A stretch of 64,000 nt of DNA from Streptomyces sp. Je 1-332 (lineage in GTDB: Bacteria; Actinomycetota; Actinomycetes; Streptomycetales; Streptomycetaceae): assembly GCF_040730185.1 (NCBI RefSeq), contig NZ_CP160402.1, positions 4,030,001-4,094,000 on the forward strand, in the 5' to 3' direction. This document shows positions 10,284 through 35,623 of this stretch, piece by piece (position 1 is the first letter of the stretch; each line of letters opens with the position of its first letter). Made by a program: the position numbers and the translations under genes. The notes beneath the pieces were generated by a model that worked only from the letters and a program-made list of their open reading frames with translations, searched no databases and had not been told where the DNA came from.

Positions 10284-11171
10284 GTGACCTCAGCTACCCC
10301 ACGGCCCAAGACCCCGGCCGCCTCCGCCCCCCACCGGCCCAAGGCCCGGCTGATCGCCACGGACCTGGACGGCACCCTTCTGCGTGACGACAAGTCCGTA
10401 TCCGACCGCACCGTCGCCGCCCTCGCCGCCGCCGAGCGGGCCGGGATCGAGGTCTTCTTCGTGACCGGCCGCCCGGCCCGCTGGATGGACGTCGTCAGCG
10501 CCCACGTGCACGGCCACGGCCTCGCCATCTGCGGCAACGGCGCCGCCGTTGTCGACCTGCACGACGGATCCGGCGGCCATCGCTTCGTGAAGGTGCGGGA
10601 GCTGCGCAGCCAGGACGCCCTCGACGTCGTCCGGCTGCTGCGCGCGGCGGCCCCCGGCACGTCCTTCGCGGTCGAGCGGACCGGCGGACTGCACCACGAA
10701 CCGACGTACCCGCCCCTGCACCTTGAGCCCGGCGAGAGCGTCGCCCCCGCGGAGAAGCTCCTCGCCGAGGACTCCGAGAACGCGACCCAGCCCATCCTGA
10801 AGGTCCTCGCCTTCCACCCCGAGATCGCCCCCGACGACTTCCTCGTCGTGGCCCGCGAGGCCGTGCGGGGCCAGGTCGAGATCACCCGCTCGAGCCCGAG
10901 CGCCCTGCTCGAGATCAGCGGTCCGGGAGTCTCCAAGGCCAGCACCCTGGAGCTGTGCTGCGCCGAGCGCGGCATCACTCCGGCGGAGGTGGTCGCCTTC
11001 GGGGACATGCCGAACGACATCGAGATGCTCGCCTGGGCGGGCACGTCGTACGCGATGGGCAACGCGCACCCGGACGTGCTCGCCGCCGCCTCGGGGCACA
11101 CGGTCGCCAACAACGAGGACGGCGTCGCGGTCGTCATCGAACGCATCCTGCGCGAGCAACAGGATCAGTAG
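10284..11171 (+). CDS. Cof-type HAD family phosphatase
   Basis: A 295-residue haloacid dehalogenase superfamily hydrolase of the Cof/YbiV type. Motif I is DLDGTLLRDD at about residues 22-31 with the two catalytic aspartates. Motif II is the threonine in FVTGRP, and motif IV is GDMPNDIEML. A C2-type cap lies between them. Such enzymes dephosphorylate sugar or nucleotide phosphates; the substrate is not predictable. The GTG at 10284 gives the start MTSATPRPK. In-frame ATG codons at 10232 and 10263 would add a Cys/Ala-rich leader without family similarity. The gene ends in CAGTAG, which is the first copy of a 35-bp repeat. Confidence 0.9.
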   Translation: MTSATPRPKTPAASAPHRPKARLIATDLDGTLLRDDKSVSDRTVAALAAAERAGIEVFFVTGRPARWMDVVSAHVHGHGLAICGNGAAVVDLHDGSGGHRFVKVRELRSQDALDVVRLLRAAAPGTSFAVERTGGLHHEPTYPPLHLEPGESVAPAEKLLAEDSENATQPILKVLAFHPEIAPDDFLVVAREAVRGQVEITRSSPSALLEISGPGVSKASTLELCCAERGITPAEVVAFGDMPNDIEMLAWAGTSYAMGNAHPDVLAAASGHTVANNEDGVAVVIERILREQQDQ

Positions 11172-11267
11172 CGGCTCCCACTGAGCGTCAGAGACGCGAC
11201 CAGTAGCCACACCCACTGAGCGTCAGAGCCGCGACCAGTAGCCGCACCCACTGAGCGTCAGAGCCTC
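11166..11267. repeat. 35-bp tandem repeat spanning two convergent stop codons
   Basis: Three units begin with CAGTAGC at 11166, 11201 and 11236 (period exactly 35, third unit partial). The first unit contains the TAG stop of the HAD gene. The last contains the TGA stop (minus strand) of the M23 gene at 11258-11260. Each unit carries CCCACTGAGCGTCAGAG. The whole gap between the two genes has therefore been multiplied. Confidence 0.9.
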
Positions 11268-12322
11268 ACTCCCCGCTCGTCCAGCCACTCGACGGGGTCC
11301 ACGCCCGACCCCAGCTGCGGCGTGAGCCGCACCTCGAAGTGGAGGTGCGGCCCCGTCGAGTTGCCGGTGGTGCCCGCCTGCCCGACCCACTGGCCGGGGT
11401 CCACCCGTTCCCCCTGGTCGACGGTGACGGCGGCCAGGTGCGCGTACTGCGTGTAGTAACCGTCCTCGTGTTCCACCAGGACCGCGATGCCGAAGGCGCC
11501 GCCGCACGACACGGACACCACCCGGCCCGCGCCGACCGACCGCACCGGGGCCCCGATGCCGACCGCGAAGTCCTGCCCGGTGTGCCGGTGCGACCAGCGG
11601 CCACCGGCGCTGTCGAAGCCCGCCGACAGCTCGTACGTCTCGACGGGCGCCGTCCACGCGCGCGTGGAGACCGTTTCCGGCTGATCCAGGCGTACGGCGC
11701 CTCTGCACTGACCGGCGGCGACCGCCCGGTCGGCCTCGCCCTGCAAGGTCCACTGCGCGGCTTCCAGCTTGCTCTCGATCCCCCGCTTCAGCTCCGCGAG
11801 ATGCTCGCTGCGGCGGTCGAGGGTGCGTTCGGCGCGGTCCGCGGTGCGCTTGGCGTCCGCGAGCCTGGCGGCGGCCCGCCGGGTCTTGTCGACGGTGTGG
11901 GTGGCCGCGAGATCCGCCTGCCGCAGCAGCCGCCGGCCACGCATCAGCTCTTCGGGGCTCTCGGCGAGCAGGAGTTGGGCGGCCTGGGAAAGGGCGCCGC
12001 CGCTGCGGTACTGGGCGTTGGCCAGCCGGCCGAGGTCCGCGTGCAGCGCGTCGGCCGCGCGCCGCTTCTTCTTCAGGAGACGGTTGAGTTTGCGGACCTT
12101 CGCGCGCTGCGCCTCGGCGGCGTACCGCCCCACTTCGTAGCGCGCGGTAGCCAGGGAGGCCTCCTCGTAGAGGCGTGCCACTTCGGCGCTCGCGCCCGGC
12201 CCGTCGCCCGCTCCCTCGCCCGGCTCCTCGGAGGCGCCCGCGGGTGTGGGGCACAGGAGTGCGCACAGCAGCAGTGTCACGGCGACGAGCGGATGACGGG
12301 CACCGCGGTGGCTCAAGCGCAT
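11258..12322 (-). CDS. M23 family peptidoglycan endopeptidase
   Basis: A 354-residue secreted or envelope enzyme. Residues about 1-30 are a signal peptide (hydrophobic LVAVTLLLCALLCPTPAGA). Residues about 40-200 are charged and helical, likely coiled coil, as in NlpD/EnvC-like proteins. The C-terminal 120 residues are a lysostaphin-like domain with the zinc ligands His and Asp in HTGQDF and the HxH motif in PHLHFEVR, so it should cleave peptidoglycan peptides. The ATG at 12322 gives the signal peptide directly. It is convergent with the HAD gene, and its stop lies within a 35-bp repeat array. Confidence 0.93.
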   Translation of the reverse strand: MRLSHRGARHPLVAVTLLLCALLCPTPAGASEEPGEGAGDGPGASAEVARLYEEASLATARYEVGRYAAEAQRAKVRKLNRLLKKKRRAADALHADLGRLANAQYRSGGALSQAAQLLLAESPEELMRGRRLLRQADLAATHTVDKTRRAAARLADAKRTADRAERTLDRRSEHLAELKRGIESKLEAAQWTLQGEADRAVAAGQCRGAVRLDQPETVSTRAWTAPVETYELSAGFDSAGGRWSHRHTGQDFAVGIGAPVRSVGAGRVVSVSCGGAFGIAVLVEHEDGYYTQYAHLAAVTVDQGERVDPGQWVGQAGTTGNSTGPHLHFEVRLTPQLGSGVDPVEWLDERGVRL

Positions 12323-12436
12323 GTCGGGGATCGTTGCCGCGCGGCCGTCACCGGGTCCTGCCCGACTGGTGCACCCGGGGCACCCGATGCCCCGAACAGC
12401 CCCCTTCCGTACGGCCGAACAGGGGCCCCGCCCCTC

Positions 12437-14173
12437 CTAGTACGGCGCCTGCCACACCACCGTCGTACCGCCGCCGTCCTCCCCGGTGCCGGGCCCGTAC
12501 CAACTGTCCCCGCCGAGCGACTCCGCACGCCTCTTGAGGTTCTTCAGGCCGCTGCGCCGGCCGCCCTCCGCGATGCCGACACCGTCGTCCGAGACCGTCA
12601 GGCGTACGCCCCGCTGCCCGTCGGGCAGGGTCACCGTCGCGTCGACGACGACATCGATCCGGTCGGCGTGCGCGTGCCGGAACGCGTTGGACAGCGCCTC
12701 GCGCAGCGCGGCGATGAGGTTCTTGCCGGATAGCTCGCCGACCACGGTGTCTACGGGGCCCACGAAGTGGTGCGTGGGCTTGAAGCCGAGCGGCACCGCG
12801 GCCATGTTGATCTCGCGAAGTACGCGCGTACGCAAGCCCGAAGGAGCCTCTGCCGGGCCCTGCTGCAAGGCGAAGATCGCGGTCCGGATCTCCTGGATGG
12901 TCACGTCCAGTTCGTCGACGGCCTTGCCCACGCCGGTCTGCACCTCGGGCACGACGGACCGGCGCTGGGCGCTCTCCAGCATCATCCCGGTGGCGAACAG
13001 GCGCTGGATCACGAGGTCGTGCAGGTCCCGTGCGATCCGGTCGCGGTCCTCGTACACGGCGAGCCGTTCACGGTCGCGCTGTGCCTCGGCCATCATCAGC
13101 GCGAGGGCGGCCTGCGAGGCGAACTGGGTGGCGAGGGTCCGCTCGGTCTCGCTGAAGTGCCGTGCGCCACGCGCGCGTGGCGTGACGAGCGTCCCCATGA
13201 CGCGGCCGTCGCTCTGCAGGGGCAGCATCATGACGGGGCCGTAGCCGCGGGCGAGGTCGGTCATCACGCGGGGGTCGGTGGCCGCGTCGTCCAGGAACAC
13301 GGAGTCCCCGGCGAGCAGATCGGAGATGATCCGGCTCTCCGGGGGGACGATCACGCCGAGCATGCCGGAGGGTTCGTCCGAGGAGACGGCGACGATCTCC
13401 ATGCCGCCCTCCTCGTCGGGCAGGAGCACGATCCCGGCTGCCGAGTCGGCCAGATGGCGGGCCTGTTCGGCGACGACGGCGAGCGCCTCCTCCGCGTCGC
13501 TTCCCGAGAGCAGCGCCGTGGTGACCGCCACGGAGCCGTCGATCCAGCGCTCGCGCTGCATGGCGGCCTCGTAGAGGCGGGCGTTGCCGATGGCGATGCC
13601 CGCCTCCGTGGCGAGGACGCGGACCATGTGGACGTCGTACTCGTTGAAGTCGGCGCCGCCCCGCTTCTCGGTCAGATAGAGGTTGCCGAAGATCTCGCCC
13701 TGGACGCGGATGGGAACGCCGAGGAAGGTCCGCATCGGCGGGTGGTGGGGCGGAAAGCCGCACGAGCGCGGATCGGCCGAGAGGTGCGCGAGGCGCAGGG
13801 TCTCCGGCTGGTGGATGAGGGCGCCGAGCAGCCCCTTGTGGCCGTCGGGCAATCGCCCGATCCGCTCGGCGGTCTCCTCGTCGATGCCGGTGTAGACGAA
13901 GTCGGAGAGGCCCTTGCCGTCCTCGGATACGACGCCGATCGCCGCGTAGTGGGCGTCCGCGAGCTCGGCCGCCGTCTCGCAGATGCGGTCGAGCGTGGTG
14001 TGCAGTTCGAGACCCGCGCCGACCGAGCGCATCGCCTCCAGGAGCTGCGGCACGCGCGCGGTCAGCTCGGGGGAGAGCCCGTGCAGGCCACGGGTCGCCT
14101 GCTTCGCCGCCTCTGCCGAGTCCGATGTGCCGTCGGGCTGGGGAGAGGCGGCGGAGGCCGAGGGGGCTGACAT
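12437..14173 (-). CDS. GAF-domain sensor histidine kinase (DevS/DosS-like architecture)
   Basis: A 578-residue cytoplasmic sensor with no membrane segment. Two GAF domains can be placed at about residues 60-205 and 225-370. They are followed by a HisKA_3-type dimerisation helix with the phospho-acceptor in RDRIARDLHDLVIQRLF, then an HATPase domain with NAFRHAHA (N box) and SDDGVGIAEGG (G1 box). The order matches DevS/DosS redox or oxygen sensors, but haem binding cannot be judged here. No response regulator gene is adjacent, so it is an orphan. It lies directly downstream of cydDC in the same orientation (76-base gap), which hints at a link to respiration. Confidence 0.92.
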   Translation of the reverse strand: MSAPSASAASPQPDGTSDSAEAAKQATRGLHGLSPELTARVPQLLEAMRSVGAGLELHTTLDRICETAAELADAHYAAIGVVSEDGKGLSDFVYTGIDEETAERIGRLPDGHKGLLGALIHQPETLRLAHLSADPRSCGFPPHHPPMRTFLGVPIRVQGEIFGNLYLTEKRGGADFNEYDVHMVRVLATEAGIAIGNARLYEAAMQRERWIDGSVAVTTALLSGSDAEEALAVVAEQARHLADSAAGIVLLPDEEGGMEIVAVSSDEPSGMLGVIVPPESRIISDLLAGDSVFLDDAATDPRVMTDLARGYGPVMMLPLQSDGRVMGTLVTPRARGARHFSETERTLATQFASQAALALMMAEAQRDRERLAVYEDRDRIARDLHDLVIQRLFATGMMLESAQRRSVVPEVQTGVGKAVDELDVTIQEIRTAIFALQQGPAEAPSGLRTRVLREINMAAVPLGFKPTHHFVGPVDTVVGELSGKNLIAALREALSNAFRHAHADRIDVVVDATVTLPDGQRGVRLTVSDDGVGIAEGGRRSGLKNLKRRAESLGGDSWYGPGTGEDGGGTTVVWQAPY

Positions 14174-14249
14174 GCCTTTGAGAGTAGTTAGTCCTATTTG
14201 GCGAGGAAAGTCGGGGGCCTGTGGCGCCTGGCCCAGGGCCCCCGCGCTC

Positions 14250-17200
14250 CTACCCGGCGGCCGTCACCAGGAGGTCCGCCGCCCGCTCCCGTTCCCGCAT
14301 GTTCCGCAGCGGCCCCTCCACCAGGACAAGCTCCGCGTACGTGCCGCGCTGCACCACCCGGCCCGCGTCCAGGACGATCACCTCGTCCACCGCGTCGAGC
14401 CCGGCGAGCCGGTGCGTGATGAGTAGCGTCGTACGGCCTTCGGTGGCGGCGAGGAGGTCGCCGGTGAGGGCGTCGGCGGTCGGCAGGTCGAGATGTTCGG
14501 CCGGCTCGTCCAGGACGAGGACGGGGAAGTCGGCGAGCAGCGCGCGGGCCAGGGCGATGCGCTGCCGCTGCCCTCCGGAGAGCCGGGCCCCGTGCTCACC
14601 GACCAGGGTGTCGAGCCCTTGGGGGAGCGAATCGGTCCACTCCCGCAGCCGGGCCCGCGCGAGGGCGTCACGCAGTTCGTCGTCACTGGCACCCTTGCGC
14701 GCGATGAGCAGGTTCTCGCGTACGGAGCTGTCGAAGATGTGCGCGTCCTGGGCGCAGAGCCCGACGAGTTCGCGCACGGTGTCGCCGTCCAGCGTGGCCG
14801 CGTCCGTGCCGCCCAGGCTGTACGTGCCTTCGCTCGCCCCCAGGAAGCGCAGCAGCACCTGGGCGAGCGTCGTCTTGCCGGAGCCCGAGGCCCCGACCAC
14901 CGCGACACGCCGTCCGCGCTCCAGGGTCAGGTCGACGCCCGCGAGCGCGTCCCGGCCCTGCCCCTCGTACCGGGCGTGCAGCCCCTCGACCCGGAGCGGG
15001 AAGGGCGTCTGCGGGCGCTGTGCGGGCACGGCGGGCTCGGGTACGGGTTCGGGGGCGTCGAGGACCTCGTAGACCCGCTCGGCGCTCTTCCTGACGCGCT
15101 GGCGGTACTGCACGGCGAGCGGCAGGCCGAGGACCGCCTCGAAGGCGGCGAGCGGGGTGAGGACGACGACGGCGAGTGCCACGCCGCTGAGCCGGCCGTC
15201 GTGCAGCGCCTGTACGCCGACGAGAGCGGCGGCGGCCACGGTGAGGCCGGAGGCGAGCGCGCCCAGGCCGTCGCCGAGCGCGGTGGCCGTGGCGGTCCTG
15301 GACGCGATGCGGGTCAGCTCGGCATCGGCTTCCTTCGCCCTGGCCGTACGCCGGGTCAGCGCGCCCGCGACCGTCAACTCCGCGGTGCCGGTGAGCAGAT
15401 CGGCCACGCGGGTGGCCAGCACCCCGCGGGCGGGGGCGAGCTTGCGCTCCGCCCGGCGGGCGACGGCTCCGGAGAGCAGCGGTACGCCCACGCCTGCGAC
15501 GAGCAGGCCGACGGCGAGGACCGCGCCCGCCTCGGGCAGCAGCCAGGCGGTGAAGCCGACGGCTCCGGCGCCCACGACAGCGGCGGCCGACGCGGGCAGG
15601 AGCCAGCGCAGCCAGTAGTCCTGCAAGGCGTCCACGTCGGCGACCAGGCGGGAGAGGAGGTCACCGCGGCGCGTCTTCCTGAGCCCGGCGGGGGCGAGGC
15701 GCTCAAGGCGGCGATAGACGGCCACGCGCGTGTCGGCCAGCATCCGCAGGACCGCGTCGTGCGAGACGAGGCGCTCCGCGTAGCGGAAGACGGCGCGGCC
15801 CATGCCGAAGGCGCGGGTCGCCGTCACGGCGATCATCAGGTACATCACCGGCGGCTGCTCGGACGCCCGGCTGATCAGCCACCCCGAGGTGGCCATCAGC
15901 CCTACGGAGCTGCCGATCGCGAGGGCGCCGAGCAGCAGGGCGAGCGCGAGCTTGCCCTTGCGTGCCTGCGCGGCACCTCGCACCCGGGCAAGGACGTCAC
16001 CCTTCGGGCGGGTCGTCTCGTGCCCGTCCACGCGGTCACCGGGCACGATCGCACCGCCGCGAGACTCATCGGCAACGGCAACGGCAACGGCTTCGGCAGC
16101 AGGCACCGCTGCCGTACCCGCGGGCTCCGGCACCTCTACGGCGCGCCCACGAAGCCGAAGTTCGTCGGCGTCCAGCCGCACGACCCGATCCGCGACCGCC
16201 AACAGAGCCGGCCGATGCACCACGAGGAGCACGGTCCGCCCCACGGCCAGCCGTCGCACCGCATCGACGACGCCCTCCTCGGTCCGGCCGTCCAGAGCCG
16301 CGGTCGGCTCGTCCAGCAGCACCACGGGGCGGTCGGCCAGGAACGCCCGCGCCAGAGCGAGCCGCTGCCGCTGCCCCGCCGAGAGCCCCGCCCCGTCCTC
16401 CCCGAGCAGCGTCTGCACACCAATCGGCAGCGCGGACACGAACTCCCAGGCCCCCGCCGCCTCCAACGCGTCCCGCACGGAAGCGTCGTCCGCGTCCGGC
16501 CGCGCGAGGCGTACGTTCTCCGCGATGGAACCGGCGTACAGGTGCGGCCGTTGCGGGACCCAGGCGATCCGCTCCCGCCACCGCTCCGGCGCGACCTCGG
16601 CCAGGTCGACGCCCCCGACGCACACCCGTCCCTCGGCAGGCTCGACGAACCCCAGGATCACGTCGAGCAGCGTCGACTTGCCCACCCCGCTGGGCCCGAC
16701 CAGAGCCAAGGTCTCGCCGGGCTCCACCGCGAACGACACCCCGGAGACCGCGTCCGACGACCGCCCCGGATACCGGACCGTCACGCCCTCCACGCTCAAC
16801 GTCCCCGAAGGCACCGCGGCCTCCCCGGCGGCCCGTACCGGAGTCTCCAGGACCTCGAAGATCTCCTCGGCGGCCGAGAGCCCCTCCGCCGCCGCGTGGT
16901 ACTGCGCGCCGACCTGGCGCAGCGGCAGATAGGCCTCGGGCGCCAGGATCAGGATCACCAGGCCCACGTACAGGTCCATGTCGCCGTGGACGAGCCGCAT
17001 GCCGATCGTCACCGCGACCAGCGCCACGGACAGCGTCGCGAGGAGTTCGAGGGCGAACGACGACAGGAAGGCGATGCGCAGCGTACGCATCGTCGCCTGC
17101 CGGTACTCGCCCGTGATCTGCCGGATCGACTCGGCCTGCGCCTTCGCGCGGCCGAACACCTTCAGCGTCGGCAGCCCCGCCACCACGTCCAGGAAGTGCC

Positions 17201-17792: not shown

Positions 17793-17800
17793 GTGAAACA
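17785..17800. promoter_or_regulatory. parS site (ParB binding) over the cydDC start codon
   Basis: GGTTTCACGTGAAACA: a perfect 14-base core GTTTCACGTGAAAC at 17786-17799, the Streptomyces parS consensus. It encodes the first codons of cydDC (FHVK). ParB bound here organises the origin region and could also block translation or transcription starts. Confidence 0.93.
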
Positions 17801-17847
17801 CACCCTCCGAAGAGATCAGCGACCGAAGAGATCAGCGGGCGCAAAAC

Positions 17848-18852: not shown

Positions 18853-18866
18853 GTCGATCAACTCCC

Positions 18867-20581: not shown

Positions 20582-20619
20582 GAGAAGGCCCCGGGAAACA
20601 CACGCCCCGGGGCCTTCTC
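20582..20619 (-). terminator. Rho-independent terminator behind the hisC-like gene
   Basis: A 14-bp perfect stem, GAGAAGGCCCCGGG (20582-20595) with its complement at 20606-20619, and a 10-base loop. It follows the stop of the minus-strand aminotransferase and insulates the Rex-controlled promoter of cydA. Confidence 0.85.
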
Positions 20620-20627: not shown

Positions 20628-20663
20628 TGCGCGGAGGCTACAGCCTGCGCGGAGGCTACAGCT
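20628..20663. repeat. 18-bp tandem duplication over the hisC stop codon
   Basis: Two copies of TGCGCGGAGGCTACAGC(C/T), at 20628-20645 and 20646-20663, differ only at the last base. The second copy contains the TAG stop (20656-20658, minus strand). The first repeats the stop in the same frame position. Confidence 0.9.
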
Positions 20664-22120: not shown

Positions 22121-23242
22121 ATGACAGCAGCAGGGAAACACCAGGTGAGCCGAGCGGAGACCGCCCGCCGGGGCAACCGGCAGAGCCGAGCGGGCATCAG
22201 AGACGTCGCCGCCGCCGCCGGTGTCTCCATCACGACTGTCTCCGACGCTCTCAACGGCAAGGGCCGGCTCCCGGACGCCACCCGACGCCACGTCCGCGAG
22301 GTCGCCGAACGGCTGGGCTATCGCCCCTCCGCGGCGGCCCGAACGCTCCGTACCGGCAAGTCGGGCCTCATCGGCCTGACCGTGACGACCTACGGGGATG
22401 AACCTTTCACCTTCACCGAATTCGCGTACTTCGCGGAGATGGCCAGAGCCGCGACCTCGGCCGCGCTGGCCCGCGGCTACGCCCTCGTCATCCTGCCCGC
22501 CACCTCCCGGCGCAGCCCGGTCGACGTGTGGTCGAACGTCGCGCTCGACGGCACCGTCGTCGTCGATCCGTCCGACCACGATCCCGTCGTCAGCGAACTC
22601 GTGCGCCAGGGCCTGCCCGTCGTGTCCGACGGGCGTCCCGCCGGGTCCCTCCCGGTCACCGCCTGGGTCGACAACGACCACGAGGCGGCGGTCCTGGAGA
22701 TCCTCGATCACCTCGCGGCGGCCGGAGCCCGCCGGATCGGGCTGCTCACCGGGACCACCACGGACACGTACACGCATCTGTCCACGACCGCCTATCTGCG
22801 CTGGTGCGAGCGCGTCGGCCAGGACCCGGTCTACGAGTCCTACCCGGCCCACGACCCGTGTGCCGGCGCGGTCGCGGCCGACCGGCTGCTCGCCAGACCC
22901 GACCGGCCCGACGCCGTCTACGGCCTCTTCGACCCGAACGGCACCGATCTCCTCGCGGCCGCCCGCCGGTACGGCCTGCGCGTCCCGGACGACCTGCTGC
23001 TCGTGTGCTGCAGCGAGTCCACGGTCTACGCCACCACCGAACCGCCCATCACGACCCTCTCGCTCAAACCGCGGCGCATCGGCACGGCCGTGGTCCAGCT
23101 CCTCATCGACGCCATCGAAGGCCTGGATTCGGGCCGGCCCGTCGAGCAGGTGATACCGACGGAGCTGATCGTGCGCACCTCGTCCGAGCGACGCCCACCG
23201 CGCACGACGGTCAGCCCACCGCGCTCACCCGGAACGGGTTGA
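22121..23242 (+). CDS. LacI family transcriptional regulator
   Basis: A 373-residue repressor. The helix-turn-helix is at about residues 27-75 (IRDVAAAAGVSITTVSDALNGKGRLPDATRRHVREVAERLGYRPSAAARTL). A periplasmic-binding-protein-like effector domain follows from GLIGLTV to about residue 345. The C-terminus is a Pro/Arg/Ser-rich tail that runs into a 36-bp repeat. The ATG at 22121 lacks a clear ribosome site; a GTG at 22145 is an alternative. No sugar operon is adjacent, so the inducer is unknown. The palindrome at 21856 resembles sites of this family. Confidence 0.92.
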   Translation: MTAAGKHQVSRAETARRGNRQSRAGIRDVAAAAGVSITTVSDALNGKGRLPDATRRHVREVAERLGYRPSAAARTLRTGKSGLIGLTVTTYGDEPFTFTEFAYFAEMARAATSAALARGYALVILPATSRRSPVDVWSNVALDGTVVVDPSDHDPVVSELVRQGLPVVSDGRPAGSLPVTAWVDNDHEAAVLEILDHLAAAGARRIGLLTGTTTDTYTHLSTTAYLRWCERVGQDPVYESYPAHDPCAGAVAADRLLARPDRPDAVYGLFDPNGTDLLAAARRYGLRVPDDLLLVCCSESTVYATTEPPITTLSLKPRRIGTAVVQLLIDAIEGLDSGRPVEQVIPTELIVRTSSERRPPRTTVSPPRSPGTG

Positions 23243-23318
23243 GCGGTCAGCCCATCCCGCTCGCCCGGAACAGGTTGAGTCGTCAGCCCATCCCGCTCAC
23301 CCGGAACCGGTTGAGCGG
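23211..23318. repeat. 36-bp tandem repeat over the LacI stop codon
   Basis: Three units start with TCAGCCCA at 23211, 23247 and 23283 with period 36. The first contains the TGA stop of the LacI gene (23240-23242) within GGGTTGAGCGG. Units two and three repeat that stop in the same place. Differences are point changes only. Confidence 0.92.
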
Positions 23319-25727: not shown

Positions 25728-25738
25728 TACGCGACGCT

Positions 25739-25786: not shown

Positions 25787-27725
<1,939 letters not shown>

Positions 27726-27813
27726 CTCCCGCGATTGCAAAGGTGGCTCCACGCTAGCGTCATGTCGGGCGCGCTGAACAGAGGGCCCTCTCCGTTCTTG
27801 CGATGATCGGGCA

Positions 27814-29229
27814 GTGACCTCGACACAGCCGCCGTCCCAGCCGCCCGTCCCGAACGTGCCTCCGGACCCGCATGGGCACTCCCACAGCCACGGTCCGGCC
27901 GCGCCCGTCTCCAAGCATCTGCGCAAGGTCATCGCCGCCGTGCTGATCCCTTTCGCGACGGCGGTGGTCGTGGGCCTCGTGGTGCTCTGGCCCGGTGGCG
28001 CGCCGGGCCACGAACGCACCGGAGTCGGCTTCGACCGGCAGACCCAGTCGGCGGACGTGACGAAGGTGCAGGAGCTCCCCTGCAAGGACGTGAACGCCTC
28101 GCAGACCCCGCCCAACGGCGACACCTCCACCGCCGAGGGGCAGTCCGCCCAGTCTCGCGCGGAGGGCATCTGCAAGAAGGCCACGATCGAGGTGACCAGC
28201 GGCAAGGACAAGGGCCGCACCTTCACCGAGATCGTCCAGCCGGACTCACCGCGGCAGTTGCGCCAGGGCCAGGAGGTGGTGGTCGCCTATGAGCCGACGG
28301 CTCCCGAGGCGCTCCAGTACTCGGTCACCGACGTGAACCGCAAGCTCCCCATGGCGCTGCTCGCCGGGATCTTCGCGCTCGCCGTCGTCGTGGTGGGGCG
28401 GTTGCGCGGTGTCATGGCCCTGGTCGCCCTGGCGTTGAGCTTCCTCGTCCTGACGTTCTTCATCCTGCCCGCGATCCTGCAGGGCTCGAACCCGCTGGTC
28501 GTGGCGGTGATCGGGGCCAGCGCCATCATGTTGATCGCGCTCTATCTGTGTCACGGCCTGACGGCGCGAACATCGGTCGCGGTCCTCGGCACGCTGATCT
28601 CGCTGCTCCTCATCGGCCTCCTCGGCTCGCTCTTCATCGGCTGGGCCTCGCTGACCGGCAACACGGACGACAACACCGGCCTGATCCACGGTCTGTACCC
28701 GTCCATCGACATGAGCGGCCTGCTGCTCGCCGGCGTCATCATCGGCTCGCTCGGCGTGCTCGACGATGTGACGGTGACGCAGACGTCCGCAGTCTGGGAA
28801 CTGCATCAGGCCAACCCCACCATGGGTTGGCGCGGTCTGTACGGCGCGGCCATCCGCATCGGCCGCGACCACATCGCCTCGGTCGTCAACACCCTCGTCC
28901 TGGCCTACGCGGGCGCCGCGCTGCCCCTCCTTCTGCTCTTCTCGATCGCCCAGAGCAGCGTGGGCACGGTGGCCAACAGCGAGCTGGTCGCCGAGGAGAT
29001 CGTCCGCACTCTGGTCGGCTCGATCGGCCTGGTCGCCTCGGTGCCGGTGACGACCGCGCTCGCGGCCCTGGTGGTCTCGGCCGACCGCTCGTCTCCCGCG
29101 GGCCGGGCGGTGACTGCGGGCAGGATGGGGGCTGCGGACCGGACGGCAAGCGCGGGCGGACCCGGGAGCGGTGCCACCCCCGCCGCCAAGCAGGGCCGCG
29201 GCGGAAAGGGCCGCCGCCGCAAAGCCTGA
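27814..29229 (+). CDS. YibE/F family membrane protein
   Basis: A 471-residue protein. The N-terminal cytoplasmic part contains a His cluster (DPHGHSHSHG, about residues 18-27). A first membrane helix is at about 38-60, followed by an extracytoplasmic region up to about 165. Seven further helices then include the family blocks RGVMALVALALSFLVL and GVLDDVTVTQTSAVWEL. The C-terminal 50 residues are basic and Gly-rich. The function of the family is not established; the DDVT region may be catalytic or metal-binding (inference). GTG at 27814. It is divergent from thiC and convergent with ssgA. Confidence 0.9.
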   Translation: MTSTQPPSQPPVPNVPPDPHGHSHSHGPAAPVSKHLRKVIAAVLIPFATAVVVGLVVLWPGGAPGHERTGVGFDRQTQSADVTKVQELPCKDVNASQTPPNGDTSTAEGQSAQSRAEGICKKATIEVTSGKDKGRTFTEIVQPDSPRQLRQGQEVVVAYEPTAPEALQYSVTDVNRKLPMALLAGIFALAVVVVGRLRGVMALVALALSFLVLTFFILPAILQGSNPLVVAVIGASAIMLIALYLCHGLTARTSVAVLGTLISLLLIGLLGSLFIGWASLTGNTDDNTGLIHGLYPSIDMSGLLLAGVIIGSLGVLDDVTVTQTSAVWELHQANPTMGWRGLYGAAIRIGRDHIASVVNTLVLAYAGAALPLLLLFSIAQSSVGTVANSELVAEEIVRTLVGSIGLVASVPVTTALAALVVSADRSSPAGRAVTAGRMGAADRTASAGGPGSGATPAAKQGRGGKGRRRKA

Positions 29230-29352
29230 GAGCCGGCGGCCGATGCGGAGGGCGGCGGCGTAAGACCCGGGCAAGCAGACGCGGAGGGCGGCGGCGCAGA
29301 GCCTGAGCGGCCGATGCGGAGGGCGCCGCCGCAAAGCCTGAGCGGCCGATGC
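29222..29352. repeat. Degenerate 35-40 bp tandem repeat after the YibE/F stop
   Basis: Three and a half imperfect units share AAAGCCTGAG, GGCCGATGCGGAGGGCG and GCCGCCGC-type blocks. The stop TGA of the YibE/F gene (29227-29229) lies in the first AAGCCTGAG, and the same stop-bearing block recurs at about 29301 and 29333. It lies in the gap between convergent genes. Confidence 0.8.
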
Positions 29353-29404
29353 CACGAAATGCAGCAATCTGCCGTACGGCTGGGCCTCTTGGCTGTCGGA
29401 GGCT

Positions 29405-29812
29405 TCAGCCCGCGCTCTGCTCCTCGGCGAGGATCCGGTCAAGCGCTTCGTCCAAGTGCGTCTCGAAGTCGGCGAGTGCCCGCTCCTGCCCCAGCGGCAC
29501 CAGCTTGTCCGTACGGTCCAGGAAGGCGAGCAGCGGCGGGATCCCCACCCGGAACAGCGCGTGGTCCGGGCCGACCTGAAGCCGGATGAGCACCTCGTCC
29601 AACAGCTCGGGATCGGTGGGAGCGATGTGCACATCCCCGTCACCGCACGCACCGCCCACCCCGTCGACCAGCAGCTCGCGCCCGAAGGCCCAGGTCACAG
29701 GGGCGTCGCCGGGAAGGTGGAAGGTCAGCCGGACGGCGTAGGGATCGCCGGTTTCATAACGCAGCTCCACCGGGATGCGAAACGACAACTCCTCGGAAAC
29801 GAGGAAGCTCAT
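29405..29812 (-). CDS. ssgA: SsgA sporulation and cell-division activator
   Basis: A 135-residue SsgA-like protein (SALP family), found only in morphologically complex actinomycetes. The N-terminus MSFLVSEELSFRIPVELRYE and the core FHLPGDAPVTWAFGRELLVDG are close to SsgA of S. coelicolor as I recall it. The RTDKLVPLGQE motif and the C-terminal ILAEEQ also fit. SsgA helps place SsgB and FtsZ at sporulation septa. ATG at 29812 has AGAGG five bases before; an adjacent ATG at 29815 is possible. The IclR gene upstream matches SsgR, the known activator of ssgA. Confidence 0.93.
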   Translation of the reverse strand: MSFLVSEELSFRIPVELRYETGDPYAVRLTFHLPGDAPVTWAFGRELLVDGVGGACGDGDVHIAPTDPELLDEVLIRLQVGPDHALFRVGIPPLLAFLDRTDKLVPLGQERALADFETHLDEALDRILAEEQSAG

Positions 29813-29945
29813 CATGACCTCTGCCTGGACCGACTCGCGCATCGCCCGCCTACCCCGTCGCTAAAGCTCGACTGGCCAGGAACCAACTCCCTGACACCCT
29901 TGGCATCTTGCTTAACGTACACATCAGATCACAAGGAGTGAGTTT

Positions 29946-30782
29946 TCAGATGCTGATAGAGAAAGCAAGTGTCCCTAGTAGCTTTCCGATCTCGTCCTGC
30001 AACCGCTCCGCCGCAGGCAGCAGGCGGTCCGACTGATAGGCGGGAACGGAAATCGCCATCGTGGCCGCCGTGTTGCCCGCAGTGATCGGAATCGCGGCGC
30101 AGACCGTTCCCAATGCGTACTCCTGCCGCTCCACCACAGGCTTCATCCGGCCCATGCCGTCGAGGCGGCGGATGAAACTCCGGTCGTCGCGGACCGAGTA
30201 CCGAGTGATCGACTGCACCGGATAGCGGGAGAGATGATCTTGCCGCTGTTCATCGTCGAGTTGGGCGAGCAGACATTGCCCGATCGCATGGGCGTGGCCC
30301 GTCTCGCGGAAGTCCGCCCACTCCTCCACCGCTGGATTGCCCGGCGTGTCCGCGACGGCCACGACCTCGATCTCGCCCTCGCGGTAGACGGCGAAGTACA
30401 CCGGTGCGCCGATGGCGTCGCGCCAGTGCTCCAGGGCCTCGTCGATCATGCCGCGACGATTCTGCTGCGCCCCGCTGGCGCTCAGCCGCTCGGCCTCCTC
30501 ACCGAGCACGAACACGCCCTTCTCCCGGCGCAGATAACCCTCGTGGGTCAACGTACGCAACAGGTGATACGCCGTGGGCAGTGCGAGCCCGGCCTCCCGG
30601 GCCAACTGCTTGGCGGGCGCTCCCTCCTGATGCGCGGCGGCGGCCTCCAGCAGGCGCATCGCCCGCTGCACCGAGCCAATGAGCGTCGGCGCGGCGGCAG
30701 TTGCAGCGGAGACGGCCGGCGACGCCTCGTACGGAGGATCGTTGGACGAGATGTCGGCGGGTGTGGCGTCAACCGTGGCCAA
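29946..30782 (-). CDS. ssgR: IclR family regulator SsgR
   Basis: A 278-residue regulator. The winged helix is at about residues 35-95 (IGSVQRAMRLLEAAAAHQEGAPAKQLAREAGLALPTAYHLLRTL), and the IclR ligand domain follows. Position and orientation directly upstream of ssgA match SsgR of S. coelicolor, which activates ssgA in development. The start is unusual: a TTG at 30782 preceded by GGGAG six bases before, with no ATG or GTG in a good place downstream until the DNA-binding domain. Low or controlled translation is likely. The 133-base gap before ssgA should hold the ssgA promoters. Confidence 0.92.
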   Translation of the reverse strand: MATVDATPADISSNDPPYEASPAVSAATAAAPTLIGSVQRAMRLLEAAAAHQEGAPAKQLAREAGLALPTAYHLLRTLTHEGYLRREKGVFVLGEEAERLSASGAQQNRRGMIDEALEHWRDAIGAPVYFAVYREGEIEVVAVADTPGNPAVEEWADFRETGHAHAIGQCLLAQLDDEQRQDHLSRYPVQSITRYSVRDDRSFIRRLDGMGRMKPVVERQEYALGTVCAAIPITAGNTAATMAISVPAYQSDRLLPAAERLQDEIGKLLGTLAFSISI

Positions 30783-30960
30783 GGTTCACTCCCGAAAACG
30801 CGTGGGGGTTCCGCCCGTGCCCCGGGATACACGGGTGGGAGCGCAGTGCGCCCGTACGCGGGGCTCACCCCACGTCGGTTTTCGGACTCTAACCGTTGGC
30901 CGTCGGCCTAAGGCGTCGCGCCAGGAAACTTCCCCCACCCGAGCGAACTGTTGCGAGAAG

Positions 30961-31182
30961 TCACCAATCGCTGCGCGAAGAGGTCGAGCCGGATATGAAC
31001 TTCCGTACGACGTAGATGAGTCCACCCACCAAGGCGACGAAAATCAGTGCCTTGAACAGGAGGCCGACCACGAATCCCACAACGCTCGCTATCAAACCGC
31101 CGAACACGACCAGGGCGACGACCGGCACCGCGATCCACTTCACCCACCACGGCAATCCCGAGAAGATCTCCTGCGCTGCCAT
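30961..31182 (-). CDS. Small membrane protein, DUF5326-like
   Basis: A 73-residue protein with the N-terminus MAAQEIFSGLPWWVKWIAVPVVALVVFGG and two hydrophobic segments (about 14-35 and 40-62), then a short Ser/Arg-rich tail. It resembles the small DUF5326 family of Streptomyces. The ATG at 31182 was preferred to starts up to 13 codons upstream. It probably sits in the membrane as a hairpin; the function is unknown. Confidence 0.8.
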   Translation of the reverse strand: MAAQEIFSGLPWWVKWIAVPVVALVVFGGLIASVVGFVVGLLFKALIFVALVGGLIYVVRKFISGSTSSRSDW

Positions 31183-31391
31183 CGTCCTTACCTCTCTCCG
31201 CATCCGTCCTACTTCTTGCATTCGATGCTAGGGCGGCGGAGGGCCCGACGGGGGCCTCGCATCCCTTGTCCTCCCCTGATCCGTCCCCTAGGGAACCCCG
31301 AGGTCGGAGCCCCGAGAAGTCAGCCCAGGGGCGTAGCGGACCAGCCCTCCAAGAGGGCCGAGTTCTTCGACGGAGCCCGGCAGCGCGGGGC

Positions 31392-31709
31392 TCAGCCCTC
31401 CGGCGGCGAGAAGACGACGAGCACCCGCAGGTCCTCGCTGATGTGGTGGAACTTGTGGGCCACCCCGGCCGGCACGTACACCACGCTGCCGCGCGCGACT
31501 TGGGTGGTTTCCATGCCGACGGTGATCGACGCCCGGCCGCTGACGATCATGTACACCTCGTCCTGCTGGTGAGGCTGTTGCGGATCGGACTCCCCGGCAT
31601 CGAGCGCGTACAACCCGACCGACATGTTCCGCTCGCGCAGAAACTGCAGATACGCACCGTCGTTCGCGGCCCGCTCGGTCTCCAGTTCGTCCAGCCGGAA
31701 TGCCTTCAT
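31392..31709 (-). CDS. Cupin domain protein
   Basis: A 105-residue single-cupin beta-barrel. The metal-site motif is seen as HQQDEVYMIVSGRASITVG (first histidine and glutamate), followed by PAGVAHKFHHISED. It may be a small dioxygenase, isomerase or a binding protein. ATG at 31709. It is divergent from the holin-like gene, 71 bases apart. No partner suggests its substrate. Confidence 0.88.
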   Translation of the reverse strand: MKAFRLDELETERAANDGAYLQFLRERNMSVGLYALDAGESDPQQPHQQDEVYMIVSGRASITVGMETTQVARGSVVYVPAGVAHKFHHISEDLRVLVVFSPPEG

Positions 31710-31780
31710 CGTCCTCGTACGCCCCTTGCCTCAGGCAGCGGTCCGACCGCTCTGGCCGTCCGTCTGCAACGATCAGACAC

Positions 31781-32161
31781 ATGAAGAATTTCGTAGTCAA
31801 GACGATCGCCAACGCGGCGGCCCTGGCCGTCGCCGTGTGGCTCCTCGACAAGATCACGCTGACCGGCGACAACACGGGCAAGAAGACGCTCACGCTGATC
31901 GTCGTCGCGCTGCTCTTCGGCTTGGTGAACTTCCTGGTCAAGCCGGTCGTGAAGGTACTCACCTTCCCGCTGTTCATCCTGACCCTCGGCCTGATCACGC
32001 TGGTGGTCAACGCCCTGATGCTGCTGCTCACGTCGTGGCTGGCCGACAAGCTCGACGTGAGTTTCCACGTCGAGGGGTTCTGGACCGCCGTCCTGGGCGG
32101 CCTGATCATCTCGATCGTGTCCTGGGCGATGAACGTCATCCTGCCCGACGACAAGGACTGA
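31781..32161 (+). CDS. Phage holin family 4-like membrane protein
   Basis: A 126-residue protein with four hydrophobic helices: about 7-23, 37-53, 60-80 and 95-118. The segment LVNFLVKPVVKVLTFPLFILTLGLITLVVNALMLLL is typical of this family (PF04020). Despite the name, most members are ordinary bacterial membrane proteins, and no phage gene is nearby. It starts at ATG 31781. ptpA begins ten bases after its stop, so they are cotranscribed. Confidence 0.87.
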   Translation: MKNFVVKTIANAAALAVAVWLLDKITLTGDNTGKKTLTLIVVALLFGLVNFLVKPVVKVLTFPLFILTLGLITLVVNALMLLLTSWLADKLDVSFHVEGFWTAVLGGLIISIVSWAMNVILPDDKD

Positions 32162-32170
32162 GCCTTCCCC

Positions 32171-32680
32171 ATGGCCCTCCCCACCGCCTTCTCCGTGTGC
32201 TTCGTCTGCACCGGCAACATCTGCCGGTCCCCGATGGCCGCGTCCGTCTTCCGCGCCCGGGTCGACGAGGCCGGACTCGGCGGCCTCGTCCGCGTGGACA
32301 GCGCGGGCACCGACGGCTGGCACGAAGGGGACGGCGCCGATCCGCGCACCGTCTCCGTCCTGGAGGCAGCCGGTTACGAGAGCGGTCATGTGGCGCGCCG
32401 TTTCCAGGTCTCCTGGTTCTCCCGGCTCGACCTGGTGATCGCCCTGGATTCCGGGCACCACCGCACCCTGCGCCGCCTCGCGCCCACCCCGGACGACGCG
32501 GACAAGGTACGGCTGCTGCGCTCGTATGACCCCGTGGCCGTGAGCCTCGGCGACCTGGACGTCCCCGACCCGTACTACGGGGACGACGAGGGGTTCGACG
32601 CGTGCCTGAGAATGGTGGAGGCGGCGAGCGACGGTCTGCTCGGCGCCGTACGCGAAGCAAGGGAAGGGCGGGCGGCATGA
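32171..32680 (+). CDS. ptpA: Low-molecular-weight protein tyrosine phosphatase
   Basis: A 169-residue phosphatase. The P-loop CTGNICRS (CX5R) is at about residues 13-20, and the general acid aspartate is in the DPYYG motif near residue 136. Fold and length match PtpA of S. coelicolor, which dephosphorylates phosphotyrosine and is linked to secondary metabolism. The start ATG at 32171 lies ten bases after the holin-like gene. Its stop overlaps the start of the lyase by four bases (ATGA), so the three genes form one coupled unit. Confidence 0.95.
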   Translation: MALPTAFSVCFVCTGNICRSPMAASVFRARVDEAGLGGLVRVDSAGTDGWHEGDGADPRTVSVLEAAGYESGHVARRFQVSWFSRLDLVIALDSGHHRTLRRLAPTPDDADKVRLLRSYDPVAVSLGDLDVPDPYYGDDEGFDACLRMVEAASDGLLGAVREAREGRAA

Positions 32681-33864
32681 CGGACTCCGCAGCGATAGCC
32701 GCAGGTAGCGGCGCAGGCACCGGGATGGGCGACGGCACGAGAGCGGTGCGGGCCGGGCTGCCCGAGCCGGTGAAGCACGAGCCGACCCTGCCGGGCCCGG
32801 TGTTCGCCGCGCACTTCCACCTGCCGGGCGATCCCACAGGCCCGTACACCTACGGGCGGGACTCCAACCCGACGTGGACGCTTCTCGAACAGGCCATCGG
32901 CGAGCTCGAGGCACCGGAAGCGGCCGGTGACGCGGCCGCCGCTACGGACGTCGAGACCCTGGTCTTCGCCTCCGGCATGGCCGCGATCTCGGCGGTGCTC
33001 TTCTCGCAGTTGCGCGCCGGTGACGCGGTGGTCCTGCCGGACGACGGTTATCAGGCGCTGCCGCTGGTCAGGGAGCAGCTCACCGCGTACGGCATCGAGG
33101 TGCGCACCGCCCCGACCGGCGGCGACGCCCAGCTCGACGTCCTGGACGGCGCCAAGCTGCTGTGGATCGAGACACCGTCGAACCCGGGCCTCGACGTGTG
33201 CGACGTGCGGCGCCTCGCCGACGCTGCACACGCGCGTGGAGCCCTCGTCGCGGTCGACAACACCCTGGCCACGCCGCTCGGCCAGCGCCCCCTCGAACTC
33301 GGCGCGGACTTCTCCGTGGCCAGCGGCACCAAGATGCTCACCGGCCACGGCGACATCCTCCTCGGTTACATCGCCTGCCGCGACGCCGAGTTGACCGACT
33401 CCGTGCGGCGCTGGCGCAAGATCGTCGGGGCCATCCCGGGGCCGATGGAGGCCTGGCTCGCGCATCGCTCGCTCGCCACGCTCCAACTGCGCGCCGAGCG
33501 CCAGAACGCCAACGCCCTGGCCCTGGCCGAGGCGCTGCGCGCCCGCGGCGAGGTGACCGGGCTCCGCTATCCGGGGCTGTCCGACGACCCGTCGTACAAG
33601 ATCGCCTCACAGCAGATGCGGCGCTTCGGATGCGTCGTCTCCTTCACGCTGCCCTCACGCGTGCGCGCCGACCGTTTCCTCGACGCCCTGCGTCTGGTGG
33701 ACGACGCGACGAGCTTCGGCGGCGTGCGTTCCACCGCCGAGCGGCGTGGCCGCTGGGGTGGGGACGCCGTCGCGGAGGGCTTCATCCGGCTTTCCGCCGG
33801 GTCCGAGGACCCGGACGACCTGGTCGCGGACGTGCTGCGCGCGCTGGACGAGTCGGCGTCGTAA
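32677..33864 (+). CDS. Cystathionine gamma-lyase-like PLP enzyme
   Basis: A 395-residue enzyme of the Cys/Met metabolism PLP family. Visible motifs are YTYGRDSNPTWTLLEQAI (tetramer active-site region), the glycine-rich FASGMAAIS, TPSNPGLDVCD, DNTLATPLG and the PLP lysine in SGTKMLTGHGDI. The last block, SFGGVRSTAERRGRW, matches the substrate carboxylate region. It most likely splits cystathionine or related thioethers to release cysteine. ATG at 32677 overlaps the ptpA stop. A terminator follows at 33917. Confidence 0.93.
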   Translation: MTDSAAIAAGSGAGTGMGDGTRAVRAGLPEPVKHEPTLPGPVFAAHFHLPGDPTGPYTYGRDSNPTWTLLEQAIGELEAPEAAGDAAAATDVETLVFASGMAAISAVLFSQLRAGDAVVLPDDGYQALPLVREQLTAYGIEVRTAPTGGDAQLDVLDGAKLLWIETPSNPGLDVCDVRRLADAAHARGALVAVDNTLATPLGQRPLELGADFSVASGTKMLTGHGDILLGYIACRDAELTDSVRRWRKIVGAIPGPMEAWLAHRSLATLQLRAERQNANALALAEALRARGEVTGLRYPGLSDDPSYKIASQQMRRFGCVVSFTLPSRVRADRFLDALRLVDDATSFGGVRSTAERRGRWGGDAVAEGFIRLSAGSEDPDDLVADVLRALDESAS

Positions 33865-33916
33865 CGGCGCCGCGTGCGTGCGGACCGCTCCCGGCTAGTA
33901 CCGCGCTACGCACAAC

Positions 33917-33955
33917 GAACGGTCCGAGCCTCCCCCCTCGTGGCTCGGACCGTTC
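33917..33955 (+). terminator. Terminator after the holin-like/ptpA/lyase operon
   Basis: A perfect 14-bp stem, GAACGGTCCGAGCC (33917-33930) with its complement at 33942-33955, and an 11-base loop. It lies 53 bases after the lyase stop. Confidence 0.85.
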
Positions 33956-34090
33956 CGGTTCTGCGCGCGAAGAACCGCGCGCACAAGGCTAGTTGACTCT
34001 GTGTCAGTGTCCAATCACAGTAGCGACAGAGACCTATCGACATATTTATAGTTGGGCGCGGCCCCAGGGCCGGGAGGGGAGGGCACCGCC

Positions 34091-34996
34091 GTGGATCTGG
34101 CCCTGCTGCGCACGTTTGTGACCGTGCATCGGGCCGGTTCCTTCACGCGTGCGGCAGCCCTGCTCGGCCTCTCCCAGCCCGCCGTCACCTCACAGATACG
34201 GACCCTCGAGCGGCAGCTCGGCCGCCCCTTGTTCCTGCGCCAGGCGCGCGGCGTGACCCCCACGACCATGGGGGACGAGCTCGCCCACAAGGCCGCGCCG
34301 CATCTCGACGCCCTGGTGGAGATCGCCGAGACGGGGCTCGAAGAGGACTCTTCGGTACGCACGCTCCACCTTGCGGGGCCACCGGAATTCACCGCGGCCC
34401 GCGCATTGCCCGCTCTCACCACGCTGACCGGGCAGGACGGGCAGAGCTTCGCGCTGCGCGCCTCGTTCGGCAACGCGGAGGAGGTGCTCGAAGGCCTCTC
34501 CGCCGGGCACCACGACCTGGCCATCACCACCGCAAGGCCCCGGGGCGCGCTGCTCACCGCGAAGCCCCTCTGCGACGAGGAGCACGTCCTGGTCGCCAGT
34601 CCGCGCTGGGCGGCCCACATCGGCCCCGGCAAGCTGCGCCGCAAGGGCGCGTCCGTCCTGGAGAGTCTGCCCGTGGTGGAGGTGCACGAGTCGCTGCCGC
34701 TGGTTGCCCGGTACTGGGCCGCTGTCTTCGACGCCCGTCCGGCCGCATCCGGCGCCGTCATTGTGCCGGACCTGCGGGCGGTGCTCGCCTGTGTCGCCGC
34801 CGGGGCGGGGCTCGCCGTGCTGCCGCGCTACCTCTGTGCGCCCGCCTTGAAGAGTGGCGAGGTCGTGGCCCTGCTGGACCCGGCGGTGCCGCCTCTGCGC
34901 ACCTATTTCCTCGTCGTACGCACCGGCACGCTCGCGATGCCGCACATCGCGCGAGCGCACGAGTGGCTGCTGCATGCTGCCGCTGACTGGGCTTGA
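34091..34996 (+). CDS. LysR family transcriptional regulator
   Basis: A 301-residue regulator. The helix-turn-helix is at about residues 1-60 (VDLALLRTFVTVHRAGSFTRAAALLGLSQPAVTSQIRTLERQLGRPLF). The effector domain resembles type 2 periplasmic binding proteins. A GTG at 34091 lies seven bases behind GGAGGG. The upstream gap is unusually AT-rich for this genome (CATATTTATAG near 34040), as expected of a promoter with an autoregulatory LysR site. No obvious target gene is divergent; the NUDIX gene follows downstream. Confidence 0.93.
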   Translation: MDLALLRTFVTVHRAGSFTRAAALLGLSQPAVTSQIRTLERQLGRPLFLRQARGVTPTTMGDELAHKAAPHLDALVEIAETGLEEDSSVRTLHLAGPPEFTAARALPALTTLTGQDGQSFALRASFGNAEEVLEGLSAGHHDLAITTARPRGALLTAKPLCDEEHVLVASPRWAAHIGPGKLRRKGASVLESLPVVEVHESLPLVARYWAAVFDARPAASGAVIVPDLRAVLACVAAGAGLAVLPRYLCAPALKSGEVVALLDPAVPPLRTYFLVVRTGTLAMPHIARAHEWLLHAAADWA

Positions 34997-35019
34997 GCGG
35001 TACTCCGGCTCATTCGCGA

Positions 35020-35035
35020 TGTTTCACGTGGAACA
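35020..35035. promoter_or_regulatory. Degenerate parS site
   Basis: TGTTTCACGTGGAACA differs from the parS consensus at one base (A to G in the right arm). It lies just behind the LysR gene and 21 bases before the NUDIX start, within the leader or promoter of the NUDIX gene. Confidence 0.8.
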
Positions 35036-35055
35036 GTCCGGGCCACATTCCTCCC

Positions 35056-35538
35056 ATGACCGTCCGACCCGTGGTCAAGCGCACCGCACGCGCCGTCCTG
35101 CTCGATGGCGACGACCTGATTCTGATCAAGCGGACCAAGCCCGGCGTCGATCCGTACTGGCTCACCCCTGGTGGTGGCGTGGAGCCGGAGGACACGACCG
35201 TCGTCGACGCCCTCCACCGTGAGGTGCACGAAGAGCTCGGCGCCAAGATCTCCGATGTGGTGCCCTGCTTCGTGGACACCGTCGAGCACATCGGCGAGGA
35301 CGGAGGCGCGACCGGCGTCAAAGTCCAGCACTTCTTCGTCTGCCGGCTGGAGTCCATGGACCTCTCCCTGCGGCACGGCCCGGAGATCGAAGAGCCGTGC
35401 GGCGAGTACGAGATCGTCCACGTGCCCTTCACCCGGGTCGGGATCGCCTCGGTCCACCTCGTACCGCTGTCCCTGCGGCACTACCTGGACGGCAACATCG
35501 AGGGCGTACGCGCGATGCACGCCCCCGATCTCGGCTAG
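35056..35538 (+). CDS. NUDIX hydrolase
   Basis: A 160-residue pyrophosphohydrolase. The NUDIX box is intact: GGGVEPEDTTVVDALHREVHEELGA at about residues 38-62 (GX5EX7REXXEEXG). The substrate is some nucleoside diphosphate linked to X and cannot be named. ATG at 35056 was chosen because upstream in-frame codons run through the parS region and the LysR stop. The gene ends in TCGGCTAG, the first unit of a CTAG-bearing repeat array. Confidence 0.92.
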   Translation: MTVRPVVKRTARAVLLDGDDLILIKRTKPGVDPYWLTPGGGVEPEDTTVVDALHREVHEELGAKISDVVPCFVDTVEHIGEDGGATGVKVQHFFVCRLESMDLSLRHGPEIEEPCGEYEIVHVPFTRVGIASVHLVPLSLRHYLDGNIEGVRAMHAPDLG

Positions 35539-35623
35539 GTGCCCCTTGGGGCTAGGGGCTTCCTGGGCTAGGCGCTTCTTGGGCTAGGGCCTTCCTGGGC
35601 TAGCTGCTCCTTGGGCTGAGCTA
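35531..35623. repeat. 16-17 bp CTAG-bearing tandem repeat between convergent stops
   Basis: Five units of the type GGCTAGGNGCYTCYTGG begin at about 35532, 35549, 35566, 35582 and 35598, and end at CTAG 35620-35623. The NUDIX stop TAG (35536-35538) is in the first CTAG. The stop of the minus-strand flavohemoprotein (35621-35623) is in the last. CTAG is its own complement, so every unit offers TAG on both strands. Confidence 0.9.

Follow-up and report, generated by a model that had tools for sequence, protein, structure and literature searches.

Bacterial and archaeal minisatellites, satellites and variable-number tandem repeats (VNTRs) need not share a common sequence: in at least one species all long-unit satellites are reported to be mutually unrelated, and many of them are non-coding (PMC6749651). 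In Streptomyces venezuelae, short intergenic tandem repeats vary in copy number between strains, and the gap separating the convergent genes cmlR and cmlL measures 4, 465 or 289 bases in three strains (PMC7357120). The VNTR at the Mycobacterium rnc-fpg junction is described from one species group only, most of the other species listed having a gap of a few to tens of bases, and the mycobacterial interspersed repetitive units (MIRUs) form a single dispersed sequence family that is said to insert at start codons (PMC2734929, PMC12548453). The tandem repeats of Borgs are described as independent in origin, with coding arrays in multiples of three and intergenic arrays that may begin inside the end of an open reading frame (PMC9879509). 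Here we consider short tandem arrays that start at or span stop codons in a 64,000-nucleotide stretch of the Streptomyces sp. Je 1-332 chromosome (NZ_CP160402.1, positions 4,030,001 to 4,094,000; hereafter the window), which lies near the middle of an 8.27-Mb single-contig genome, and we ask how they compare with arrays elsewhere in this genome and in other actinomycetes.

The arrays are composed of head-to-tail units of about 10 to 100 bases in about two or more copies, and we regard them as ordinary elements of a known kind (minisatellite/VNTR) in an unusually clear distribution. Like the minisatellites and VNTRs surveyed previously, they have short units that are unrelated to each other, but they are non-randomly placed within non-coding DNA, with stops over-represented and starts avoided (compare PMC6749651). 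The S. venezuelae repeats are likewise short and intergenic, although they lie upstream of genes and that account, as far as it extends, draws no link to stop codons (PMC7357120). Both the MIRU and rnc-fpg repeats and the arrays described here are tandem arrays in actinobacterial gene junctions; unlike MIRUs, the latter have no common unit and copy the local stop region (PMC2734929, PMC12548453). With the Borg repeats they share independent origin, coding periods in multiples of three and a possible start within the end of a reading frame, whereas the Borg repeats are said to be perfect and enriched in A, in an account whose available part contains no test at stop codons (PMC9879509). The TAACTGA repeats of Beggiatoaceae also carry stops within the unit, but they are described as a single heptamer residing mostly just upstream of start codons (PMC4679880). 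Finally, yeast tandem stop codons resemble our arrays in placing more than one stop at the gene end, except that the nearby extra stop is reported as conserved in yeasts (PMC1088959) and is not specially conserved here.

Tandem arrays are truly concentrated at gene ends, for reasons that are understood only in part. We sampled the genome in 60 evenly spaced 20-kb stretches, later doubled to 120 (2.4 Mb, 29% of the genome, not overlapping the window), and identified arrays with Tandem Repeats Finder (TRF; periods of 10 or more, scores of 60 or more, overlapping rows merged). Among 413 arrays, 196 are coding, 149 intergenic, 58 overlap a stop codon, 8 overlap a start codon and 2 overlap both. 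The 217 arrays that are not wholly coding exceed chance, since each of three Markov shuffles of 349 kb of gap DNA produced a single array scoring 60 or more. The imbalance of stops over starts (58 vs 8, leaving out the 2 that overlap both) recurs in one orthologous region from 80 Streptomyces relatives (31 vs 6, 2 left out), in 550 kb of Nonomuraea gerenzanensis (19 vs 2, 2 left out), drawn from an 11.85-Mb circular record that is filed as a plasmid and that we took, from its size, as the chromosome, and in 550 kb from three Streptomyces megaplasmids (7 vs 1, none overlapping both). The megaplasmids (L262, L264, L265, L276-L283) are sparser in intergenic arrays, with 10 in 550 kb compared with 149 in the 2.4-Mb chromosome sample at an identical threshold. 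Gene ends were placed with a home-made gene caller, aided at the arrays by Pfam; tried on one annotated 40-kb stretch of a Streptomyces plasmid, the caller found 35 of the 39 annotated stops and called no others.

Relocating arrays uniformly over all non-coding DNA of the first 1.2 Mb gave 29 stop-spanning arrays where 7.8 were expected, with none of 200 relocations reaching the observed number, and 4 start overlaps against 10.4 expected. This null is too lenient, given that arrays cover several-fold less of the DNA upstream of starts, and it was replaced by a null confined to the stop side of genes. The latter allows placement throughout convergent gaps and, in co-directional gaps, in the half next to the stop; a unit may extend into the gene up to the limit set by the stop. 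Left out are arrays in the other half of co-directional gaps, arrays touching a start, periods above 60, gapless junctions and incomplete gene ends. The null is conservative, since a placement that covers the two stops of a convergent pair counts twice. According to the original prediction, a lack of enrichment at stops once intergenic position is corrected for would have refuted it; in the 29% sample the enrichment persists, with 55 stop-spanning arrays observed and 21.3 expected (2.6-fold), in convergent (26 vs 8.7) as well as co-directional junctions (29 vs 12.7). The excess extends to Nonomuraea (17 vs 7.2) and the megaplasmids (5 vs 1.1). In the 80 relatives, where a single region samples few distinct junctions, it is weak (30 vs 20.7; 15 vs 12.3 at score 80) and is confined to co-directional junctions (14 vs 7.7), the convergent ones having none (16 vs 17.6). 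A 250-kb stretch of Sinorhizobium meliloti pSymB yielded 2 arrays at score 60, both coding, and no stop-side arrays; this stretch has no power, and the phenomenon is therefore not shown outside actinomycetes. Among the matches listed in a literature search of titles and abstracts, with most subscription journals uncovered, enrichment of tandem repeats at bacterial stops is not reported.

The structure of the arrays indicates how such duplications could be accommodated. At 56 of the 62 stops touched, the stop sits in the first, gene-side unit, and array starts in the genome sample are densest between about 20 bases ahead of the end of the stop and 10 bases past it. The period is divisible by three in 191 of 196 coding arrays, compared with 17 of 58 stop-spanning and 63 of 149 intergenic ones. 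Together with the sparing of starts, these counts support the proposal in the original prediction that a duplication is tolerated if it brings a stop of its own. The converse possibility, that arrays created the stops by shifting the frame, was set aside as the main cause, given how regularly the stop occupies the first unit. Microhomology does not distinguish stops: the extra bases beyond two units have a median of 2 in 24 arrays at stops and likewise in 66 arrays elsewhere outside genes.

We consider it probable that the arrays reflect recurrent, nearly neutral duplication that is tolerated where the first copy keeps the stop, and that perhaps lives longer there. Independent tandem duplications of whatever sequence crosses the 3' end of a gene would have expanded mostly to two to five copies. 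Such duplications presumably arise throughout the genome by slippage or by recombination at short homologies. Within genes they would survive almost only as multiples of three, and across starts they would be removed because ribosome binding and promoters are disturbed, while across stops they would be close to neutral. As the gene-side copy as a rule keeps the true stop, the protein need not change. Moreover, stop-spanning arrays may stay recognisable longer than others, because selection on the protein would hold the gene-side copy amid rapid turnover of gap DNA. The arrays need not have a function. A second likely cause of the excess is that gap DNA may be less tolerant of duplication than the null assumes. 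In the genome sample, nearly perfect stop-spanning duplications number 12 where 5.6 are expected and those with 85-94% match number 44 where 14.1 are expected, as longer survival predicts. By match class (at least 95%, 85-94%, below 85%), the ratios of observed to expected in Nonomuraea are 2.04, 3.08 and 1.55.

Several observations weigh against tolerance and survival as a full account. In our own genome the trend with age is not uniform (2.07, 3.11 and 2.53 for the same three classes), and in the 80 relatives the excess falls with age (2.32, 1.41, 1.26), contrary to the survival idea. The null is uniform over the stop side, yet the observed number exceeds it by the margin given above (55 vs 21.3), and array starts peak at the stop without a shown constraint that lowers counts further downstream. 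In 6 of the 62 touched stops, the stop lies beyond the first unit. Young, nearly perfect duplications are themselves about 2-fold in excess (18 vs 8.8, pooled over our genome, Nonomuraea and the megaplasmids), so that survival alone is insufficient.

It is conceivable that gene ends are a true birth hotspot, at which uncoupling of transcription from translation at ribosome exit, a stalled polymerase, RNA-DNA hybrids or encounters with replication forks promote slippage. The 2.6-fold excess in both junction types and its recurrence in Nonomuraea would fit such a hotspot, as would the young excess and the lack of a rise with age in the relatives. However, the young excess comprises only 18 arrays, to which our genome contributes 12 (vs 5.6), the plasmids 4 (vs 0.8) and Nonomuraea 2 (vs 2.3), and the relatives, which were not pooled, show none (5 vs 5.8). 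Orientation has little effect: 30 of 606 convergent stops and 30 of 958 co-directional stops are touched, convergent ones being marginally richer per stop (p = 0.08), and in the relatives' region convergent junctions are without excess altogether. Nor is there a difference between replication strands (29 of 824 leading and 31 of 740 lagging stops, p = 0.51, the origin being taken near dnaA). In addition, the peak lies on the stop itself, whereas an uncoupled polymerase would be expected to act downstream of it. On balance we regard such a hotspot as rather unlikely to be the principal cause; the residual among young duplications, on small numbers, may reflect a modest contribution from it. The original prediction had suggested that gene ends, convergent ones in particular, are slippage hotspots owing to collisions of polymerases or forks. 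The enrichment part of that suggestion holds, but convergent collision and replication strand were discarded as causes for want of a clear effect per stop, convergent junctions looking rich mainly because each has two stops. A bolder proposal is that the last few codons and the stop constitute a duplication birth hotspot in actinomycetes regardless of orientation or replication strand, such that gene ends would continually seed intergenic DNA. We entertain it as a tentative possibility, and one that we would sooner doubt than accept.

The window is somewhat rich in stop-touching arrays and is the same in kind as the rest of the genome: five TRF arrays touch 6 of its 56 stops (with one array, A4 below, uncounted), compared with 62 of 1930 in the genome sample. 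The five arrays first noted there were all borne out by TRF and by reading of the sequence, and gene calls and Pfam place them at real gene ends; three lie between convergent genes (A1, A4 and A5) and two in co-directional junctions (A2 and A3), as had been stated. A1 (11166-11265, period 35, 2.9 copies, not assigned to a strand) lies between a plus-strand HAD hydrolase gene (10284-11171) and a minus-strand M23 peptidase gene (11258-12280) and holds the stops of both, TAG at 11169-11171 and TGA at 11258-11260. Each 35-bp unit carries both neighbouring gene ends, that is, the TAG of the plus-strand gene and the TGA of the minus-strand gene, and thus the entire convergent junction has been multiplied, making A1 the most telling case. 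A2 (20628-20662, minus strand, period 18, 1.9 copies) spans the TAG of an aminotransferase gene at 20656-20658. A3 (23208-23318, plus strand, period 36, 3.1 copies) spans the TGA of a LacI-type regulator gene at 23240-23242, the next gene being co-directional. A4 (29209-29352, plus strand) has about four units of about 35 bp if the gene end itself is counted, and belongs to a YibE/F-like gene with its TGA at 29227-29229. TRF delimits A4 as 29236-29352 (period 35, 3.3 copies), that is, starting after the stop, whereas comparison with the relative L182 (see below) places the first unit at the gene end itself, from about 29209. One inner unit of A4 deviates and has a TAA near the place of the stop; the gene faces an SsgA-like gene in convergent orientation, with the stop of the latter at 29405. 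Both this SsgA-family gene and the relatives found point to Streptomyces. A5 (35533-35617, period 16/32, about five units of 16, not assigned to a strand) spans the TAG of a NUDIX gene at 35536-35538 and occupies the whole gap up to a convergent minus-strand flavohaemoglobin-like gene (stop at 35621). A sixth stop-spanning array, absent from the original five, lies at 39804-39848 on the minus strand (23 bp, 2 copies), where it spans the stop of an HbpS-like gene (39843-39845) that is convergent with a GNAT acetyltransferase gene.

Other features of the window may be recorded beside these. A perfect 16-bp duplication (17807-17837, 1.9 copies) resides in a 55-base gap separating two minus-strand genes, 10 bases past the point where the upstream gene has its stop. 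About four copies of a 30-bp repeat (7415-7552) are coding and lie in the N-terminal part of a MerR-type regulator gene (7398-8516), before the DNA-binding domain. The small RNA Scr3920 (RF02828, 150.8 bits), at 33914-34038 on the minus strand, is the sole match in the window at the gathering score of an Rfam family.

Comparison with relatives reveals how two of the arrays originated. Among 79 relatives that were ranked, Streptomyces longisporoflavus (L182) is the closest (93.2% coding identity), and in it A3 and A4 are present as single copies, each consisting of the gene end, one stop and then the flank that follows the last copy in the window. Hence the coding tail, the stop and some downstream bases were multiplied, while the stop and the downstream flank stay in place. 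A search of 41 genomes with A3 found no match better than that in L182. Copy number of A3 and A4 therefore varies between lineages, as in a VNTR, with several copies in the window and one in L182, a difference seen between species only. At the A2 and A5 sites, L182 has no array or duplication, and A1 falls outside the L182 stretch compared.

The same junctions bear arrays in a minority of the other species. Counting our own genome each time, arrays occur at the A1 junction in 5 of 24 scored genomes (24 of 30 loci being scorable, two of them with a doubtful gene end), at A2 in 14 of 71, at A3 in 19 of 78, at A4 in 15 of 78 and at A5 in 4 of 30, or 1 of 45 (our own only) in a second comparison. 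At A2, 12 of the 14 lie within 200 bases of the stop and 4 span it; at A3, 11 of the 19 do so and 5 span it, some of the others being hundreds of bases downstream. For both of these junctions the far end of the gap was taken as the point where similarity resumes, and far-downstream arrays may thus lie in the next gene. At A4, 3 arrays span the left stop, the window's own not being among them by TRF. By eye, the units at a given junction differ between species apart from the common gene-end sequence, and it therefore appears that arrays arise and vanish repeatedly. Before the TAG, the later copies of A5 read CTGGGC or TTGGGC in three cases and TTGGGGC in one, while the gene itself reads CTCGGC; the gene end of the relatives reads CTGGGC in 22 of 29 and CTCGGC in 3 of 29. 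Given this resemblance, the copies may be remnants of an older gene end.

Why each unit should repeat a stop invites a functional answer, and the original prediction offered stacked backup stops. On such a reading the copies would be retained to catch ribosomes that read through or shift frame. The units in the window do repeat a stop, and all 8 later copies scored there keep it, but these arrays were chosen for repeating a stop. Taking the genome sample alone, later copies preserve the stop triplet unchanged in 58 of 92 cases and other triplets in 997 of 1764, a slight tendency that would favour backup stops. Across 86 arrays from two sets, later copies match the first copy in 341 of 429 cells in the stop columns and in 1724 of 2129 in the flanks, and a stop persists in 87 of 143 later copies. 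Indeed, between -9 and +11 no position is less well kept than the first base of the stop (0.70). No reading frame is favoured either, given the 17 of 58 stop-spanning periods divisible by three. TGA is the leakiest stop, and yet it is not over-represented at the arrays (35 of 58, compared with 1358 of 1930 overall). We therefore regard backup stops as very improbable.

A role in the RNA fares no better. Were the arrays transcription terminators or other gene-end RNA elements, self-pairing units such as those of A3 and the position of three of the five arrays between convergent genes would be explained. However, in the 80 bases past the stop, folding is less stable in array genes (n = 60) than in genes drawn without stop-spanning arrays (n = 200), the mean z relative to shuffles being -0.93 and -1.65, respectively (p = 0.03). 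A2 is already followed by a separate, intact terminator-like hairpin at about 20582-20619, no array reaches the gathering score of any Rfam family, and at the corresponding junctions of relatives arrays are mostly absent or of different sequence. It is thus highly unlikely that the arrays serve as such elements. Less plausible still, to the point of being nearly negligible, is a MIRU-like mobile repeat, dispersed over the genome by insertion at gene ends. While the gene-end position does recur, not one related pair was found among 63 units (58 from the sample and 5 from the window, E ≤ 1e-3), in agreement with the earlier observation that the units are unrelated, and the local single-copy precursor of A3 and A4 is the gene end itself.

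Tolerated, nearly neutral duplication of gene ends thus remains the explanation that we favour, and its distribution shows, in a simple form that can be counted, where small duplications originate and persist in densely packed bacterial genomes. It also carries a warning that repeated stops should not be read as a safety device. If the young excess reflects a bias in birth, gene ends would be a tractable place to study what provokes slippage. More generally, the arrays suggest that part of the intergenic DNA of actinomycetes is made by copying gene ends.

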